From the IMG/VR virus record IMGVR_UViG_3300026077_000012, positions 1 to 37,122 of that record: DNA of 37,122 nt. One strand, written 5' to 3'. Shown in pieces: positions 21,083 to 28,642 of this stretch (position 1 is its first letter; the number at the start of each line of letters is the position of its first letter). Source of the DNA: a virus. A model generated the notes under the pieces. It saw only the letters and a program-made list of their open reading frames with translations. It was not told the origin of the DNA and searched no databases. The translations under genes and the position numbers were made by a program.

Positions 21083-23347
21083 ATGTACGATTACTACAGC
21101 AGGAGTATTACAAGACAAGAGATCAAAGGCAATCTCGCAAGACTCCTAGCAACAGAGAATTTAATTGTTGAGCATAGAGGTGATATTCCTACAGCATCTT
21201 TTGATGTAGATCGTAGGGTTCTTCAACTTCCACAATGGGATCAAGCATCTGGTCAGGTTTATGACATGTTAGTTGGTCATGAAGTTGGTCATGCTCTCTA
21301 TACTCCTAACGAAGATTACACTGACTATGTTCAGTGTCCAAAAGATTATGTGAATGTCGTTGAAGATGTTCGCATCGAGAAACTTATGAAGCGTAAGTAT
21401 CCTGGTCTTAAGAAGAGTTTCAATGCAGGATACAAAGAACTAAGTGAGCAAGATTTCTTTCAAGTTAAAGGTGTAGATTACAACACTGTTCTATTCATTG
21501 ACCGTATCAATCTTCACTACAAACTTGGACCTTCTGCAATGGTTCCTTTCAGTTCTGAGGAGCAGTTAATTGTAGACAGAGTTGCAGACACAGAAACTTT
21601 TGAGGAAGTATGTGCCTTAGCAGATGAGATCTATGGTAAAGCGAAAGCAGATCAACCAACAGATCAACAACCAAATTCATCTATGCCTTCTACTGGACAA
21701 GGTGAGGGTGATGGAGATGGTGAAACTGAGCAAGTATATCAGACACCTTCTGAAGAAGGTGATTCATCTGAGTCAAGTAACGATCCTTCATCTGAAGGTG
21801 AATCTGATAGTGAAGGTGAAGATGGTGAAGGTAAAGGAGCAAGCGGTGGTACTGGATCTAGTGGTGGAGCAGGTGCTCAAGGTTCACAAGGATTTCAGGA
21901 CATTGAATCTTCTCAAACACAGAATGCATTTGATTCTGCTGCAAAGAATCTAAGTACAGAGTCAGCACATAACATTGGTTACTTTGAGATTCCATCTAAC
22001 CTTAAGTTGGATGATTATCTTGTTGACTGGCAAGAGGTTCATGACTGGATCGATTCACGTTTCGCATTACAAGAACCACCAAGAGTTTCTATGGGTGAAG
22101 ATGGTACTGTATACTGGAAGCAACATGGTCTAGAGGATGCAGACCAATCCTATAGAGAGTACAGACAATCAGCACAGAAAGAAGTTAACTATCTCGTAAA
22201 AGAATTCGAGTGCCGTAAATCTGCTAGTGCTTATGCTCGTGCTACAACTTCTAAGACTGGAGTTATTGATACAACTAAACTTCATACTTACATGTACAAT
22301 GAAGATATCTTTAAGAAGATCTCTGTAGTACCTGATGGTAAGAATCATGGTTTACTTTTCCTTCTTGACTGGTCTGGTTCTATGTCAGATCAACTTCATG
22401 CAACATTGAAGCAAGTATTAAACTTGACTGCATTCTGCAAGAAGGTTAACATCCCATTCGAAGTTTATGCATTCACAAATGAGTGGAGAGTTGTTAACAT
22501 GATTAAGGATAACAATCCTGAAGCACGTGCTTACTGGTATCATGATGATCCTACTACAAACAAACCTGTAGAAGGTGAGTTTCATATCAGAAAGGGTGAA
22601 TTCAATCTAATGAATATCATCTCATCACGTAGTAATTCACGTGACTATGAGAGACAGTGCAAGAACATCTATCGTTGCACATATGCACATGAGTTACGTG
22701 GATCATGCTACAATGTTCCAGAAGGTATGCAACTATCTGGTACACCATTAAATGAAGCAATCGTAATGCTTAACTACATCATTCCATCTTTCAGAAAGAA
22801 GAATGATCTTGAGAAAGTAAACGTATGCGTTCTTACTGATGGTGAAGGAGCACGTTCAGGTTACGGTAGAAAGACTCATAGGGAATATGAGGATGATAAG
22901 ATCTATGTTAGTTCAATCGGTGTAATGAATGCACTACGTGATCGTAAGACTGGTAGAGTATACAAACCACTTTCAGATAATTACTGTGGTTTAACTAACC
23001 AGTTAATCGTTCAAGTTAGAGATCGTAATCCTGGTGTTAATGTTCTTGGATTTAGAATCCTTAGTGGCAGTCGTCTTAGTGAGTTTGTTAACAGATATTC
23101 TGATAACAACTACAACTACGATAGAATCCAGTCACAGTGGAGAAAGGACAAGTCTTGCATCATCCCAAATCCACTTGGATACACTGCTCTCTATGCTATA
23201 CAGCAAACCGCACTTGACAGTGATACCGAACTCAAGGTAGAATCAGGAGCAAAGAAGGCAGACATCTCACGTGCTTTCAAAAAAATGTTAAAGTCGAAGT
23301 CAACAAACAAGAAACTGTTGAATTCATTTGTGGGGTACGTTGCTTGA
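21083..23347 (+). CDS. CobT-like VWA protein with HExxH peptidase motif
   Basis: 754 residues in three parts. The N-terminal part (1-200) has HEVGHAL (H66, E67, H70), a zinc-metallopeptidase signature. NVVEDVRIE follows about 24 residues later and could supply the third ligand (E94 or E95). The middle (about 205-270) is a Gly/Glu/Ser/Asp-rich linker. The C-terminal part is a von Willebrand A domain with the MIDAS motif DWSGSMS (D429, S431, S433), YAFTNEW and VLTDGEG. The acidic linker plus VWA layout matches CobT and Mg-chelatase D. Its probable partner is the MoxR-type ATPase at 23995. Annotated elsewhere as a peptidase; actual activity is unknown. Confidence 0.85.
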   Translation: MYDYYSRSITRQEIKGNLARLLATENLIVEHRGDIPTASFDVDRRVLQLPQWDQASGQVYDMLVGHEVGHALYTPNEDYTDYVQCPKDYVNVVEDVRIEKLMKRKYPGLKKSFNAGYKELSEQDFFQVKGVDYNTVLFIDRINLHYKLGPSAMVPFSSEEQLIVDRVADTETFEEVCALADEIYGKAKADQPTDQQPNSSMPSTGQGEGDGDGETEQVYQTPSEEGDSSESSNDPSSEGESDSEGEDGEGKGASGGTGSSGGAGAQGSQGFQDIESSQTQNAFDSAAKNLSTESAHNIGYFEIPSNLKLDDYLVDWQEVHDWIDSRFALQEPPRVSMGEDGTVYWKQHGLEDADQSYREYRQSAQKEVNYLVKEFECRKSASAYARATTSKTGVIDTTKLHTYMYNEDIFKKISVVPDGKNHGLLFLLDWSGSMSDQLHATLKQVLNLTAFCKKVNIPFEVYAFTNEWRVVNMIKDNNPEARAYWYHDDPTTNKPVEGEFHIRKGEFNLMNIISSRSNSRDYERQCKNIYRCTYAHELRGSCYNVPEGMQLSGTPLNEAIVMLNYIIPSFRKKNDLEKVNVCVLTDGEGARSGYGRKTHREYEDDKIYVSSIGVMNALRDRKTGRVYKPLSDNYCGLTNQLIVQVRDRNPGVNVLGFRILSGSRLSEFVNRYSDNNYNYDRIQSQWRKDKSCIIPNPLGYTALYAIQQTALDSDTELKVESGAKKADISRAFKKMLKSKSTNKKLLNSFVGYVA

Positions 23348-23372
23348 CAACTTCCCCTTTCGGCTTTATACT
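23344..23372 (+). promoter_or_regulatory. Consensus sigma70 promoter TTGACA-N17-TATACT
   Basis: TTGACA at 23344-23349 overlaps the stop of the VWA gene. TATACT lies at 23367-23372 with a 17-base spacer. The expected start near 23379 is 24 bases before ATG 23403. This rules out the in-frame ATG at 23328 as the main start of the next gene. Confidence 0.85.
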
Positions 23373-23402
23373 AATTCAAACAGGCCAAATCTCACAAAAT
23401 CT

Positions 23403-23930
23403 ATGAGAAAACTCAAACAGTTGTGCAGAGAGTATCGCCAATATGAAACTCTTCATAATGGAAAGATACTTGTCCATGCACTAAAAATGCAAATTCGTCA
23501 ACGTCCTAACGGAACTCAGATAAGATTTCTGAAGAAGGCTGCCAAGTCATACTTCAGGGAAAACTATCCTACTGCATTCGATGAAATGACAGAGAAGGAT
23601 TGGGATGACGTAGCAAAGCGTCTTAGTTATATCTGGAATACAACTAAGAATGAAGATCCTATCTTCAAAGACTACCGAATATCACACCCTTCATACTTTG
23701 CTGGTTCCAAGCAAGTATCAGAAGAGCAGATTAAACTCCCCTTCGATATATACGAGGAGGTAACTCTTCCAGTAGAGAAGAAACAAGCACCCCAACCTGT
23801 ATATGCTTTCAAGCAGGATATTACACCACCTACACCCGATGCATTCTCTGTTGTAGATCGTATCATTGATAGGTTCACTGAAGCAACTGTAACCACAAAA
23901 GATGGTACAGTGATCCAGTTGAAAAAGTGA
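23403..23930 (+). CDS. Unknown protein between VWA protein and MoxR ATPase
   Basis: 175 residues from ATG 23403, chosen because a consensus promoter lies between it and the upstream in-frame ATG at 23328. The N-terminal half is basic and helical (RKLKQLCREYRQYETLHNGK, FLKKAAKSYFRENYPTAFDE). The C-terminal half has a Pro-rich linker and ends in a beta hairpin (TVTTKDGTVIQLKK). No known motif is seen. It is a monocistronic unit: its own promoter in front and an intrinsic terminator directly behind. The function is unknown; neighbours suggest a link to the chelatase-like pair. Confidence 0.65.
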   Translation: MRKLKQLCREYRQYETLHNGKILVHALKMQIRQRPNGTQIRFLKKAAKSYFRENYPTAFDEMTEKDWDDVAKRLSYIWNTTKNEDPIFKDYRISHPSYFAGSKQVSEEQIKLPFDIYEEVTLPVEKKQAPQPVYAFKQDITPPTPDAFSVVDRIIDRFTEATVTTKDGTVIQLKK

Positions 23931-23935
23931 CACAC

Positions 23936-23958
23936 ACCCCCTTCACAGGGGGTTTTTT
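23936..23958 (+). terminator. Intrinsic terminator
   Basis: ACCCCCT (23936-23942) pairs with AGGGGGT (23947-23953) around a TCAC loop, followed by a run of six T to 23958. It lies a few bases after the stop codon of the preceding gene and separates it from the MoxR-type ATPase gene. Confidence 0.9.
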
Positions 23959-23994
23959 CTTGCTATCATAAGTACATAACAAACAACAAAGCAA

Positions 23995-25074
23995 ATGCCA
24001 GCAAAGAACCCACTGACAACTAAGACATTAGTCAACTACCTTACCAAGAAGAATGGTACAGAAGTAAATGCAGATCATGTACGTGAAGCAGCAGCACATT
24101 TTGGATTGAAGTATGCATCTACAACCAAAAGGTTGCGTAAGTTTTATGTTAAGCGTGGTACATGGTCACTTGAAGAAGTAAAAGAAAATCTTGAGCGTCA
24201 GATCAGTGCTCCTGCTGTGATTCCACAGGAAGTACAGAACCTAGTACCAGCAAAGGATCCAAACTTTGTTCCTTTCGGTAACTTCTCTGATGTAAAGAAG
24301 ATCATTAACAGTAAGCTCTTCTATCCTACATTCATTACTGGACTCTCTGGTAATGGTAAGACTCTAGGTGTAGAACAAGCATGTGCTCAACTAAATAGAG
24401 AACTCATTCGTGTTAACATTACCATTGAAACAGACGAAGATGATCTCATTGGTGGATTCAGACTTGTTAATGGACAAACTGCATGGCACAATGGTCCTGT
24501 GGTAGAAGCACTAGAGAGAGGTGCAGTTCTACTTCTTGATGAAGTTGACCTCGCATCAAATAAGATTTTATGCTTGCAATCTATCCTAGAAGGTAAGGGT
24601 GTATTCCTTAAAAAGATTGGTAGGTATGTAAAGAGAGCACCAGGTTTTAATGTTATTGCAACAGCAAATACCAAAGGTAAAGGATCTGAGGATGGTAGAT
24701 TCATTGGTACTAATGTATTGAATGAAGCATTCCTTGAGAGATTTGCTTTGACATTCGAACAGGAGTATCCATCTGTTAAGACAGAACAAAAGATTCTTGA
24801 GAAGGTTTCAGGTAATCTAGGTGCTCTTGATGAAGAGTTCTGTGTACACCTTGCTAACTGGGCAGACATCATCCGTAGGACATTTAAGGATGGTGGTATC
24901 GATGAGGTTATTTCAACTCGTAGATTGGTACACGTGATTCGTGCATTCGCAATCTGGCAGGATCGTATGAAAGCAATCAAACTTTGCATCAATCGTTTCG
25001 ATGATGAGACTAAGCAGTCATTCTTAGATCTTTATGATAAGATTGACGGTGATGTAGAGCAGGAGGAGTCATGA
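23995..25074 (+). CDS. cobS: MoxR-type AAA+ ATPase, cyanophage 'CobS'
   Basis: 359 residues. An N-terminal helical domain of about 90 residues is followed by an AAA+ module. It has Walker A GLSGNGKT (116-123), Walker B VLLLDEVD (178-185) and sensor 1 ATANT (222-226), with TNVLNEAFLERFALTF as the arginine-containing segment. The sequence pattern is that of the protein annotated cobS in nearly all T4-like cyanophages. CobS is the ATPase of aerobic cobaltochelatase, but MoxR relatives more often remodel protein complexes with a VWA partner, and such a partner lies just upstream. The cobalamin role is therefore inherited annotation, not shown by the sequence. Confidence 0.9.
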   Translation: MPAKNPLTTKTLVNYLTKKNGTEVNADHVREAAAHFGLKYASTTKRLRKFYVKRGTWSLEEVKENLERQISAPAVIPQEVQNLVPAKDPNFVPFGNFSDVKKIINSKLFYPTFITGLSGNGKTLGVEQACAQLNRELIRVNITIETDEDDLIGGFRLVNGQTAWHNGPVVEALERGAVLLLDEVDLASNKILCLQSILEGKGVFLKKIGRYVKRAPGFNVIATANTKGKGSEDGRFIGTNVLNEAFLERFALTFEQEYPSVKTEQKILEKVSGNLGALDEEFCVHLANWADIIRRTFKDGGIDEVISTRRLVHVIRAFAIWQDRMKAIKLCINRFDDETKQSFLDLYDKIDGDVEQEES

Positions 25075-25238
25075 TCAAACAAACAGATTGTAGATTCATA
25101 GGCAGTGTCATCTCCCTTAAGGGAGGTGCGTCTGCTAGGGTACTCAATGTCCATGACGATAAGATTTCAATATTAAATCTTGACGGTTCGGAGAAAGAGT
25201 GCTATTATAAAGACATTAATTATGTATGGACACCTTGA
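25071..25238 (+). CDS. 55-residue beta-rich unknown protein
   Basis: An ORF from ATG 25071 to TGA at 25236-25238. A strong AGGAGGAG ribosome-binding site precedes the ATG, which overlaps the ATPase stop as ATGA. The sequence (CRFIGSVISLKGGASARVLN, then KISILNLDGSEKECYY) suggests a small five-stranded barrel. It is translationally coupled to the MoxR-type ATPase, so it may be an accessory factor, but no family is recognised. Confidence 0.6.
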   Translation: MIKQTDCRFIGSVISLKGGASARVLNVHDDKISILNLDGSEKECYYKDINYVWTP

Positions 25239-25546
25239 TGAAATACAATGAAGCAGAACTGCTGAAGGAGATCGGTGACTATATCAGTCAAACTTACAGA
25301 GGTCATTATTCTGTCGGTAACGTTCAGACTCTTGACCTTATTGATTCTGTAGGTGATGCTGAAGCATTCTGTAGGAGTAACGTCCTCAAGTATGCGTCAC
25401 GATATGATCGTAAAGGATCAGCACGTAAGGACATTATTAAGATCATCCATTATGGTCTTCTCCTACTACACTTTAATGACAAGGCTGCTAAAGCAGCATC
25501 CATGCAAACTGGATCCACATCATTCACAGTTGATTACGACAAATGA
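25238..25546 (+). CDS. DUF3310-like small protein
   Basis: 102 residues from ATG 25238, which shares one base with the previous TGA; an upstream in-frame ATG at 25226 would add four residues. It is mainly helical, with the end motif LKYASRYDRKGSARKDIIKI followed by IHYGLLLLHF. This resembles the DUF3310 family found in many phages next to nucleotide and replication genes (pattern 'YxxRxxxKGxxxxDlxKaxhYlxll'). The function is not known. It leads directly into gp45 (ATGA overlap). Confidence 0.65.
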   Translation: MKYNEAELLKEIGDYISQTYRGHYSVGNVQTLDLIDSVGDAEAFCRSNVLKYASRYDRKGSARKDIIKIIHYGLLLLHFNDKAAKAASMQTGSTSFTVDYDK

Positions 25547-27793: not shown

Positions 27794-28642
27794 ATGCCAA
27801 CAACACAAAAATCACTGAAGACACCACTACGCTATCCAGGAGGGAAGAGTCGAGCAGTAGTAAAGCTACTCCAATACCTCCCAGACCTTTCCCAGGTAAA
27901 AGAGTATAGAGAACCGTTCATAGGTGGTGGTTCAGTAGCATTAGAACTTACGAAGAGGTATCCTCATTTACAGATCTGGGTTAATGATCTGTATGAACCT
28001 CTGTATAATTTCTGGTGCGAACTGCAACATGATGGTGAAAAATTACAACAAGAATTGCTGAGTCTGAAGGCTACTTATTGTAACCAAGACTCAGCAAGAT
28101 GTTTGTTTCAATCTATGAAGGAGGTTATTAATGATAAAGAAAAATCGAATTTCGAAAGAGCAGTTGCTTTTTATACTGTTAATAAGTGCAGTTTCAGTGG
28201 TCTCACTGAGTGCTCCTCATTTTCAGGGCAAGCATCGGATTCCAACTTCTCCATTCGAGGGATTGAAAGACTCGTGGGATACCAAGAGCTCATCCAAAAC
28301 TGGATCATTACCAACCACTCCTACGAAAGACTTCTAACAGCAGACTGGGATAGGAAGGGTCATTTTGTATACATGGATCCACCATATGATATCAAAGACA
28401 ATCTCTATGGTAAGAAGGGTGGTATGCATAAAGGATTTGACCATGATAAGTTCGCAAAGGACTGTGATGAATACACCTCACCTATGCTGATCTCTTACAA
28501 TTCTGATCAAATTGTTAAGGACAGGTTCAAGGAGTGGACAGTTGCGGAATTTGCACATACATACACCATGAGGTCTGTGGGGTGCTATAATAAAGATCAA
28601 GCGTCCCGTAAGGAGTTAGTCCTTTTAAATTATGAAATGTGA
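27794..28642 (+). CDS. dam: DNA adenine methyltransferase, Dam family
   Basis: 282 residues, N6-adenine methyltransferase of the D12/Dam class. LRYPGGKSR (12-20) and FIGGGSVALEL (42-52) form the AdoMet-binding region, and MDPPYD (D195 to Y198) is the catalytic DPPY motif. EcoDam-type enzymes methylate GATC, and GATC is plentiful in this window, which fits self-methylation. The exact target is inferred. The start ATG 27794 lacks an obvious ribosome-binding site; an overlapping 48-codon frame begins at ATG 27763 with a GGAG in front. It is part of an accessory block between gp44 and gp62. Confidence 0.9.
   Translation: MPTTQKSLKTPLRYPGGKSRAVVKLLQYLPDLSQVKEYREPFIGGGSVALELTKRYPHLQIWVNDLYEPLYNFWCELQHDGEKLQQELLSLKATYCNQDSARCLFQSMKEVINDKEKSNFERAVAFYTVNKCSFSGLTECSSFSGQASDSNFSIRGIERLVGYQELIQNWIITNHSYERLLTADWDRKGHFVYMDPPYDIKDNLYGKKGGMHKGFDHDKFAKDCDEYTSPMLISYNSDQIVKDRFKEWTVAEFAHTYTMRSVGCYNKDQASRKELVLLNYEM

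Follow-up and report, generated by a model that had tools for sequence, protein, structure and literature searches.

We analysed positions 1 to 37,122 of the IMG/VR virus record IMGVR_UViG_3300026077_000012, a stretch of 37,122 nucleotides that we call the window and that represents the replication block of a T4-like cyanophage. Two neighbouring genes in this block are the subject of the present work. The first (21083..23347) encodes a 754-residue metallopeptidase-VWA protein that belongs to phrog_459 'peptidase' and to T4-GC 146 in annotated cyanophages. The second (23995..25074) encodes a 359-residue MoxR-type AAA+ ATPase belonging to phrog_249, which is annotated as cobS or porphyrin biosynthesis. 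cobS is a near-universal gene of cyanomyophages that surveys tally among the auxiliary metabolic genes for vitamin B12 and that has been used as a community marker. A sequence-only reading of this DNA had described a HEVGH motif, an acidic linker and a metal ion-dependent adhesion site (MIDAS) in the larger protein, with the ATPase downstream and coupled to a 55-residue protein; on re-reading the sequence we found each of these features, and their coordinates, to be correct. Both genes, their domains and motifs, and the smaller features described between and directly after them lie on the plus strand.

The 754-residue protein and the downstream ATPase

The AlphaFold2 model of the N-terminal zincin-like domain (residues 1-190; 21083..21652) has a mean predicted local distance difference test score (pLDDT) of 90.4. 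It consists of a small three-stranded sheet, an active-site helix (residues 57-73) carrying the HEVGH zinc-binding motif (residues 66-70; 21278..21292), and then a helix (residues 87-105) carrying EDVRIE. This second helix, with the family motif EDxRIE, supplies E94-D95 (21362..21367) as the candidate third zinc ligand. Among 136 unique proteins aligned, H66, E67, H70, E94 and D95 are invariant in all 126 that have an intact N-terminus; in the remaining 10 the aligned N-terminus is missing, apparently cut by the start of the available sequence. The homologue scans of viral contigs used two whole-protein patterns, one of which contains HExxH, and a third covering the C-terminal half only. The zinc-site residues are kept in 35/35 loci first reached by the C-terminal query alone. 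The same site is found in eight cultured phages (P-HM1, P-SSM3, S-PM2, Bellamy, P-RSM1, S-SSM7, HTVC008M and DLP6) with hosts in Prochlorococcus, Synechococcus, Pelagibacter and Stenotrophomonas, and homologues of the VWA protein are present in 463 records of the phage collection.

At Z of at least 5 the PDB fold matches of this domain are zincin-family metallopeptidases without exception, namely ArdC, BlaR1, jannalysin, abylysin, ZMPSTE24, IrrE/PprI, selecase and a putative Zn-dependent peptidase, and Wss1 is also matched, at Z 4.7. The minigluzincins and small zincins (selecase, jannalysin, ArdC, IrrE/PprI and Wss1) share the zincin fold with HExxH (Z 4.5-6.5), but they differ in having neither a VWA domain nor a MoxR partner, and are only 6-15% identical to the phage domain. 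Searching PDB sequences with the family profiles gave no real match, and the 754-residue protein does not match the DUF2201_N metallopeptidase model. The protein has HExxH, a third-ligand candidate downstream by sequence position and, in the model, a zincin fold, which are the features of a zincin-type metallopeptidase. It probably binds zinc through the HExxH and Glu site, and these features make an active metallopeptidase probable. The sequence-only reading, which took HExxH to point to proteolysis or metal handling under control of the ATPase, would have been refuted by poor conservation of the motif; the motif proved invariant and is joined by the candidate ligand E94 in the EDxRIE helix, while cleavage itself is predicted.

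The N-terminal domain is followed by an acidic linker (residues 190-276; 21650..21910) with 21 D/E and one K/R in 87 residues, which is disordered in the full-length model (pLDDT <50 over residues 194-271). The C-terminal VWA domain (residues about 420-754; 22340..23344) is closest among PDB folds to the MIDAS domain of midasin (Z 15.8) and the VWA domain of NorD (Z 15.5). Its MIDAS is complete, comprising D429-x-S431-x-S433 (22367-22381), T554 (22742-22744) and D586 (22838-22840), with D429, S431 and S433 present in 135/135 homologues. Because the residues of both sites are invariant, the combination of HExxH and MIDAS is not a chance architecture.

The ATPase carries Walker A (GLSGNGKT, residues 116-123; 24340-24363) and Walker B (VLLLDE, residues 178-183; 24526-24543) motifs. 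It matches the Pfam families AAA_5 (5e-19) and CbbQ_C (above cut-off), falls in the MoxR clade, and has midasin, CobS and NorQ as its nearest solved sequences (PDB CobS, E 2e-21). It is found at 60-80% identity in 453 records of the phage collection. Counting loci where a match was found or where the downstream sequence runs to 3 kb or more, the gene follows the VWA gene on the same strand in 138 of 139; of 18 loci without a downstream ATPase, 17 have less than 3 kb of downstream sequence. A VWA protein with a complete MIDAS is therefore encoded beside a MoxR-clade ATPase, as in known MoxR-VWA pairs. NorQ/NorD and midasin (Rea1/MDN1) provide the closest solved VWA folds and are among the closest solved ATPase sequences. 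They differ in lacking a metallopeptidase domain, and midasin is a single chain. Midasin and NorD both function with MoxR-type AAA+ modules.

Relatives and gene neighbourhood in mobile elements

Homologues of this zincin-VWA/MoxR pair are carried by phages, by phage-plasmids and by conjugative plasmids, some of them in E. coli, and share one architecture: HExxH, then an E/D motif, an acidic linker, a C-terminal VWA domain and an adjoining MoxR ATPase. We found it in SSU5-like phage-plasmids of E. coli and Acinetobacter, an IncHI-like plasmid, Rhizobium phage N2_6, Gordonia phage Chidiebere, Vibrio phage ICP2, Rhodococcus phage ReqiDocB7 and Bacteroides phage BS162P1. Gordonia phage Kvothe has its ATPase three small genes away from the zincin-VWA gene, and Kvothe and ReqiDocB7 have a longer spacing from HExxH to the acidic motif. 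HExxH is retained in a changed context across phages of Gordonia, Rhodococcus, Vibrio, Rhizobium and Bacteroides and plasmids of Enterobacteriaceae and Acinetobacter. In a profile comparison the T4-like and plasmid N-terminal domains aligned at E 1.7e-12, their HExxH and EDxRIE motifs falling at matching positions, and on this alignment we regard the two as homologous.

Some members depart from this arrangement. On an IncC plasmid and an Alcaligenes plasmid the VWA protein adjoins DUF3150, and no MoxR gene was listed near it within the stretch read. Three plasmid loci (L027:2516-5674, L028:1388-5860 and L030:1062-4276), some of them conjugative, have the HExxH-VWA gene beside DUF3150 and directly 3' of bet/exo-type recombination genes, with a MoxR gene in L028. 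In Pseudoalteromonas phage XG4 (L022:4890-7147) the VWA domain and the HExxH zincin are two overlapping open reading frames (ORFs) in reversed order, which is consistent with a module of partner domains.

In the T4-like loci gp46 precedes the pair in 81 of 87 cases and gp45 follows it in 62 of 67. Its neighbours in other elements include dnaE; ssb-bet-exo; a lambda-type exonuclease; UvsX with a polymerase and a helicase; a ligase with a replication protein; a DnaB-type helicase; and a primase with a helicase. As the sample was non-random and had no null, we treat this DNA-metabolism neighbourhood as a suggestive lead and not as a test.

A proposed protein-handling machine and competing explanations

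Taken together, we think it reasonably probable that the product of the two genes is a protein-handling machine of the MoxR-VWA kind and not a cobalt chelatase, one that would use ATP to present DNA-linked targets to its zincin peptidase. By analogy with its family, the 359-residue ATPase would assemble into a hexameric AAA+ ring. The fold and residue conservation of the VWA domain suggest that the 754-residue partner docks on this ring through it, and that the MIDAS metal captures an acidic group on its protein target in the manner of midasin and NorD. The long acidic linker would tether the N-terminal zincin-like domain, whose HExxH and Glu site is intact at the level of sequence and model. 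The captured protein could then be unfolded or detached by ATP turnover and so handed to the peptidase. The likeliest targets may be proteins that act on DNA in replication or recombination, since in the majority of the unrelated mobile elements that we looked at the pair is surrounded by genes of this kind; this is the weakest step of the mechanism. A more specific version, in which an ATP-driven metalloprotease would pull out and cleave DNA-bound proteins at phage or plasmid replication or recombination sites, as a functional counterpart of Cdc48-Wss1/SprT, with CobT of the B12 pathway as an offshoot of this mobile-element family lacking the zinc site, seems to us rather unlikely.

Several observations weigh against the protein-handling reading. 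An intact HExxH does not by itself prove proteolysis, and the N-terminal domain matches PDB folds only moderately well (Z 6.5 at best; Foldseek E 0.04). T4-like synteny is inherited, so that the neighbourhood is only suggestive, and in the stretches read for Gordonia phage Kvothe and Rhodococcus phage ReqiDocB7 no clear DNA-replication gene lies nearby. The MoxR-type ATPase of the Staphylococcus kayvirus Stab20 (L023:4863-5981) has no recognisable partner, its neighbour g054 showing neither HExxH nor MIDAS. Two further points bear on cobalt chemistry: genes for phycobilin (tetrapyrrole) reductases adjoin cobS in S-SSM7 and P-SSM3 (L024:9378-10025 and L288:6732-7421), and an E. coli phage-plasmid protein with HEVAH matches the CobT family PF06213 at 2.9e-27, with phage-plasmid homologues scoring on the CobT Pfam models.

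It is possible that the 754-residue protein is an adaptor that binds metal without cleaving, the pair carrying out remodelling only, as RavA-ViaA, NorQ-NorD and CbbQ-CbbO do. Most characterised MoxR-VWA pairs remodel without proteolysis, and CobT retains the domain without HExxH, showing that the domain can be useful in this form. However, E67, the catalytic Glu, varies no more than the histidines do (126/126), which counts against pure metal binding because this alone needs no catalytic Glu, and we regard such an adaptor as unlikely.

A role in virion assembly, with the pair acting as chaperone and peptidase on structural proteins, was proposed by Iyer et al. in 2021 for a MoxR and metallopeptidase-vWA pair of group 2.2 jumbo phages, the cyanophages being placed in group 2.1 (PMC7824862). 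As described, the domain architecture is identical, a MoxR AAA+ protein beside a VWA protein with an N-terminal metallopeptidase, and the tails of Acidianus two-tailed virus are reported to require a MoxR-vWA pair (cited in PMC7824862). In contrast to the jumbo phage pair, the one studied here is near-universal in cyanophages and lies in the replication block, where it is flanked by gp46 and gp45/gp44 and not by structural genes. Homologous zincin-VWA proteins are moreover carried by conjugative IncC and IncHI-like plasmids, which make no virions. Location and plasmid members thus disfavour assembly as a general role, and we give it only a slim chance.

The explanation that fares worst is the one implied by the annotation, that of a viral CobS/CobT cobaltochelatase which borrows host CobN to raise cobalamin output. 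It has been proposed for tailed viruses (PMC8651126) and is assumed in the cyanophage literature (PMC2984593, PMC9983427). The peptidase reading is not wholly new (PMC7824862) and the opposite one is also in print: a PLoS Biology article of 2021 holds that the label of peptidase for cyanophage cobT is an error and that viral CobST takes over the CobN of the host (PMC8651126), whereas a 2023 survey gives the cobalamin function of cyanophage cobS as unknown (PMC9983427). There is a real resemblance, in that CobS/CobT (TIGR01650, PF06213 and PF11775) also combine an AAA+ ATPase with a partner that has a related N-terminal domain, an acidic linker and a C-terminal VWA domain. The phage proteins nevertheless fall below or outside these curated models. 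The 754-residue protein matches no Pfam family at E 1, and so neither CobT (PF06213) nor CobT_C (PF11775), and the 25 families listed for a set of 61 homologues, made up of this protein and 60 relatives, include neither model. The ATPase, although distantly homologous to CobS, scores 68.4 bits against NCBIfam TIGR01650, where the cut-off is 558.55. In the ATPase tree cellular CobS forms a clade with 100/100 support that contains no phage proteins, the deep branches being unsure.

The zinc site separates the two groups further. HExxH, which all 126 phage proteins with an intact N-terminus retain, is found in 0/109 unique alphaproteobacterial sequences of true CobT, where the position reads like ALRRRYHDD; the CobT of solved cobaltochelatase entries (9uka and others) has ALRQARHNPRI there. 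The Glu equivalent to E94, the third-ligand candidate, is kept in CobT, in 110/110 aligned rows. Direct profile comparison of the T4-like N-terminal domain with CobT is weak (E 0.086), and it is the plasmid proteins that connect the two (E 0.001). Since phage-plasmid homologues score on both the CobT and CobT_C models, the kinship between CobT and the HExxH proteins is real. On the simplest history, CobT would have lost its zinc site. CobT does not appear in the fold-match list of the N-terminal domain, which counts neither way.

Cobalt insertion also fits poorly with the hosts. E. coli, a host of homologous pairs, has no match to the CobN/ChlH family (PF02514), and pelagiphage HTVC008M carries the pair in SAR11, where CorA is the sole potential cobalt ion transporter and is present only in HIMB59 (PMC4771312). 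On the other side, Synechococcus elongatus has a PF02514 gene, which may be ChlH, and two cyanophages have phycobilin genes beside cobS. On balance the sequence evidence favours the peptidase reading and disfavours cobalt insertion, which we consider very improbable. The suggestion of the sequence-only reading that the pair is mislabelled as cobalamin synthesis is supported by the ATPase score, the absence of a CobT Pfam match, the lack of HExxH in true CobT and the pairs in E. coli, which has no CobN match, and its statement that the window has no CobN-type large subunit agrees with our ORF listing, in which no ORF exceeds 829 residues and hence no complete CobN gene is present. The evidence shifts the pair from B12 metabolism to protein handling. 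By the same evidence, the 'cobT/cobS' labels given to genes of phage-plasmids, of conjugative plasmids and of many CobN-less Alphaproteobacteria would seem to call for a second look.

Of 289 alphaproteobacterial genomes sampled, 216 match CobT (PF06213) and 115 match CobN/BchH (PF02514); 105, or about half of those with CobT, have no CobN match; some of these genomes may be incomplete, and the control Caulobacter vibrioides likewise had CobT without CobN. Given the 105 genomes, even cellular CobST may often do something other than cobalt insertion.

Activation of Rubisco in the manner of CbbQ/CbbO, considered because the ATPase passes the CbbQ_C cut-off, was rejected, as homologous pairs occur in elements of Pelagibacter, Stenotrophomonas, Vibrio and E. 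coli, hosts not known as autotrophs, no search for Rubisco in these hosts having been made. Anti-phage defence was rejected as well, PADLOC giving no convincing match and only one weak DrmE match, to a plasmid homologue.

Gene order around the pair

The gene order in the window is gp47, gp46, the 754-residue protein, a 200-residue ORF, the ATPase, a 55-residue ORF, a 106-residue ORF, gp45, a 2OG-Fe(II) oxygenase-like ORF and gp44, the gp names being taken from sequence recognition and from annotated relatives with identical order. The 200-residue ORF (23328..23930, likely start ATG 23403) was found only in 14 close loci among the homologous loci compared. It is followed by a terminator-like GC hairpin and T-run (23936..23953) just before the ATPase gene, which has the most G-C pairs of the 12 terminator-like sites found in the region, where 2.7 were expected. 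Neither the ORF nor the hairpin figures in the sequence-only reading. Because this ORF and hairpin stand between them, the VWA and ATPase genes may be separate transcription units in this phage; the gap between the two genes in relatives has a median of 89 bases. A promoter-like site overlaps the strong hairpin just 5' of the ATPase gene (23936-23969).

The gene for the 55-residue protein (25071..25238) overlaps the ATPase stop codon through ATGA. The protein weakly matches phrog_4819, and a homologue is present in 47 loci. Between the ATPase and gp45 the 106-residue ORF (25226-25546) is kept in 62/67 loci. Elsewhere in the replication block, an ORF at 27794-28642 resembles a D12-class DNA adenine methylase, as judged by eye from its N-terminal sequence.

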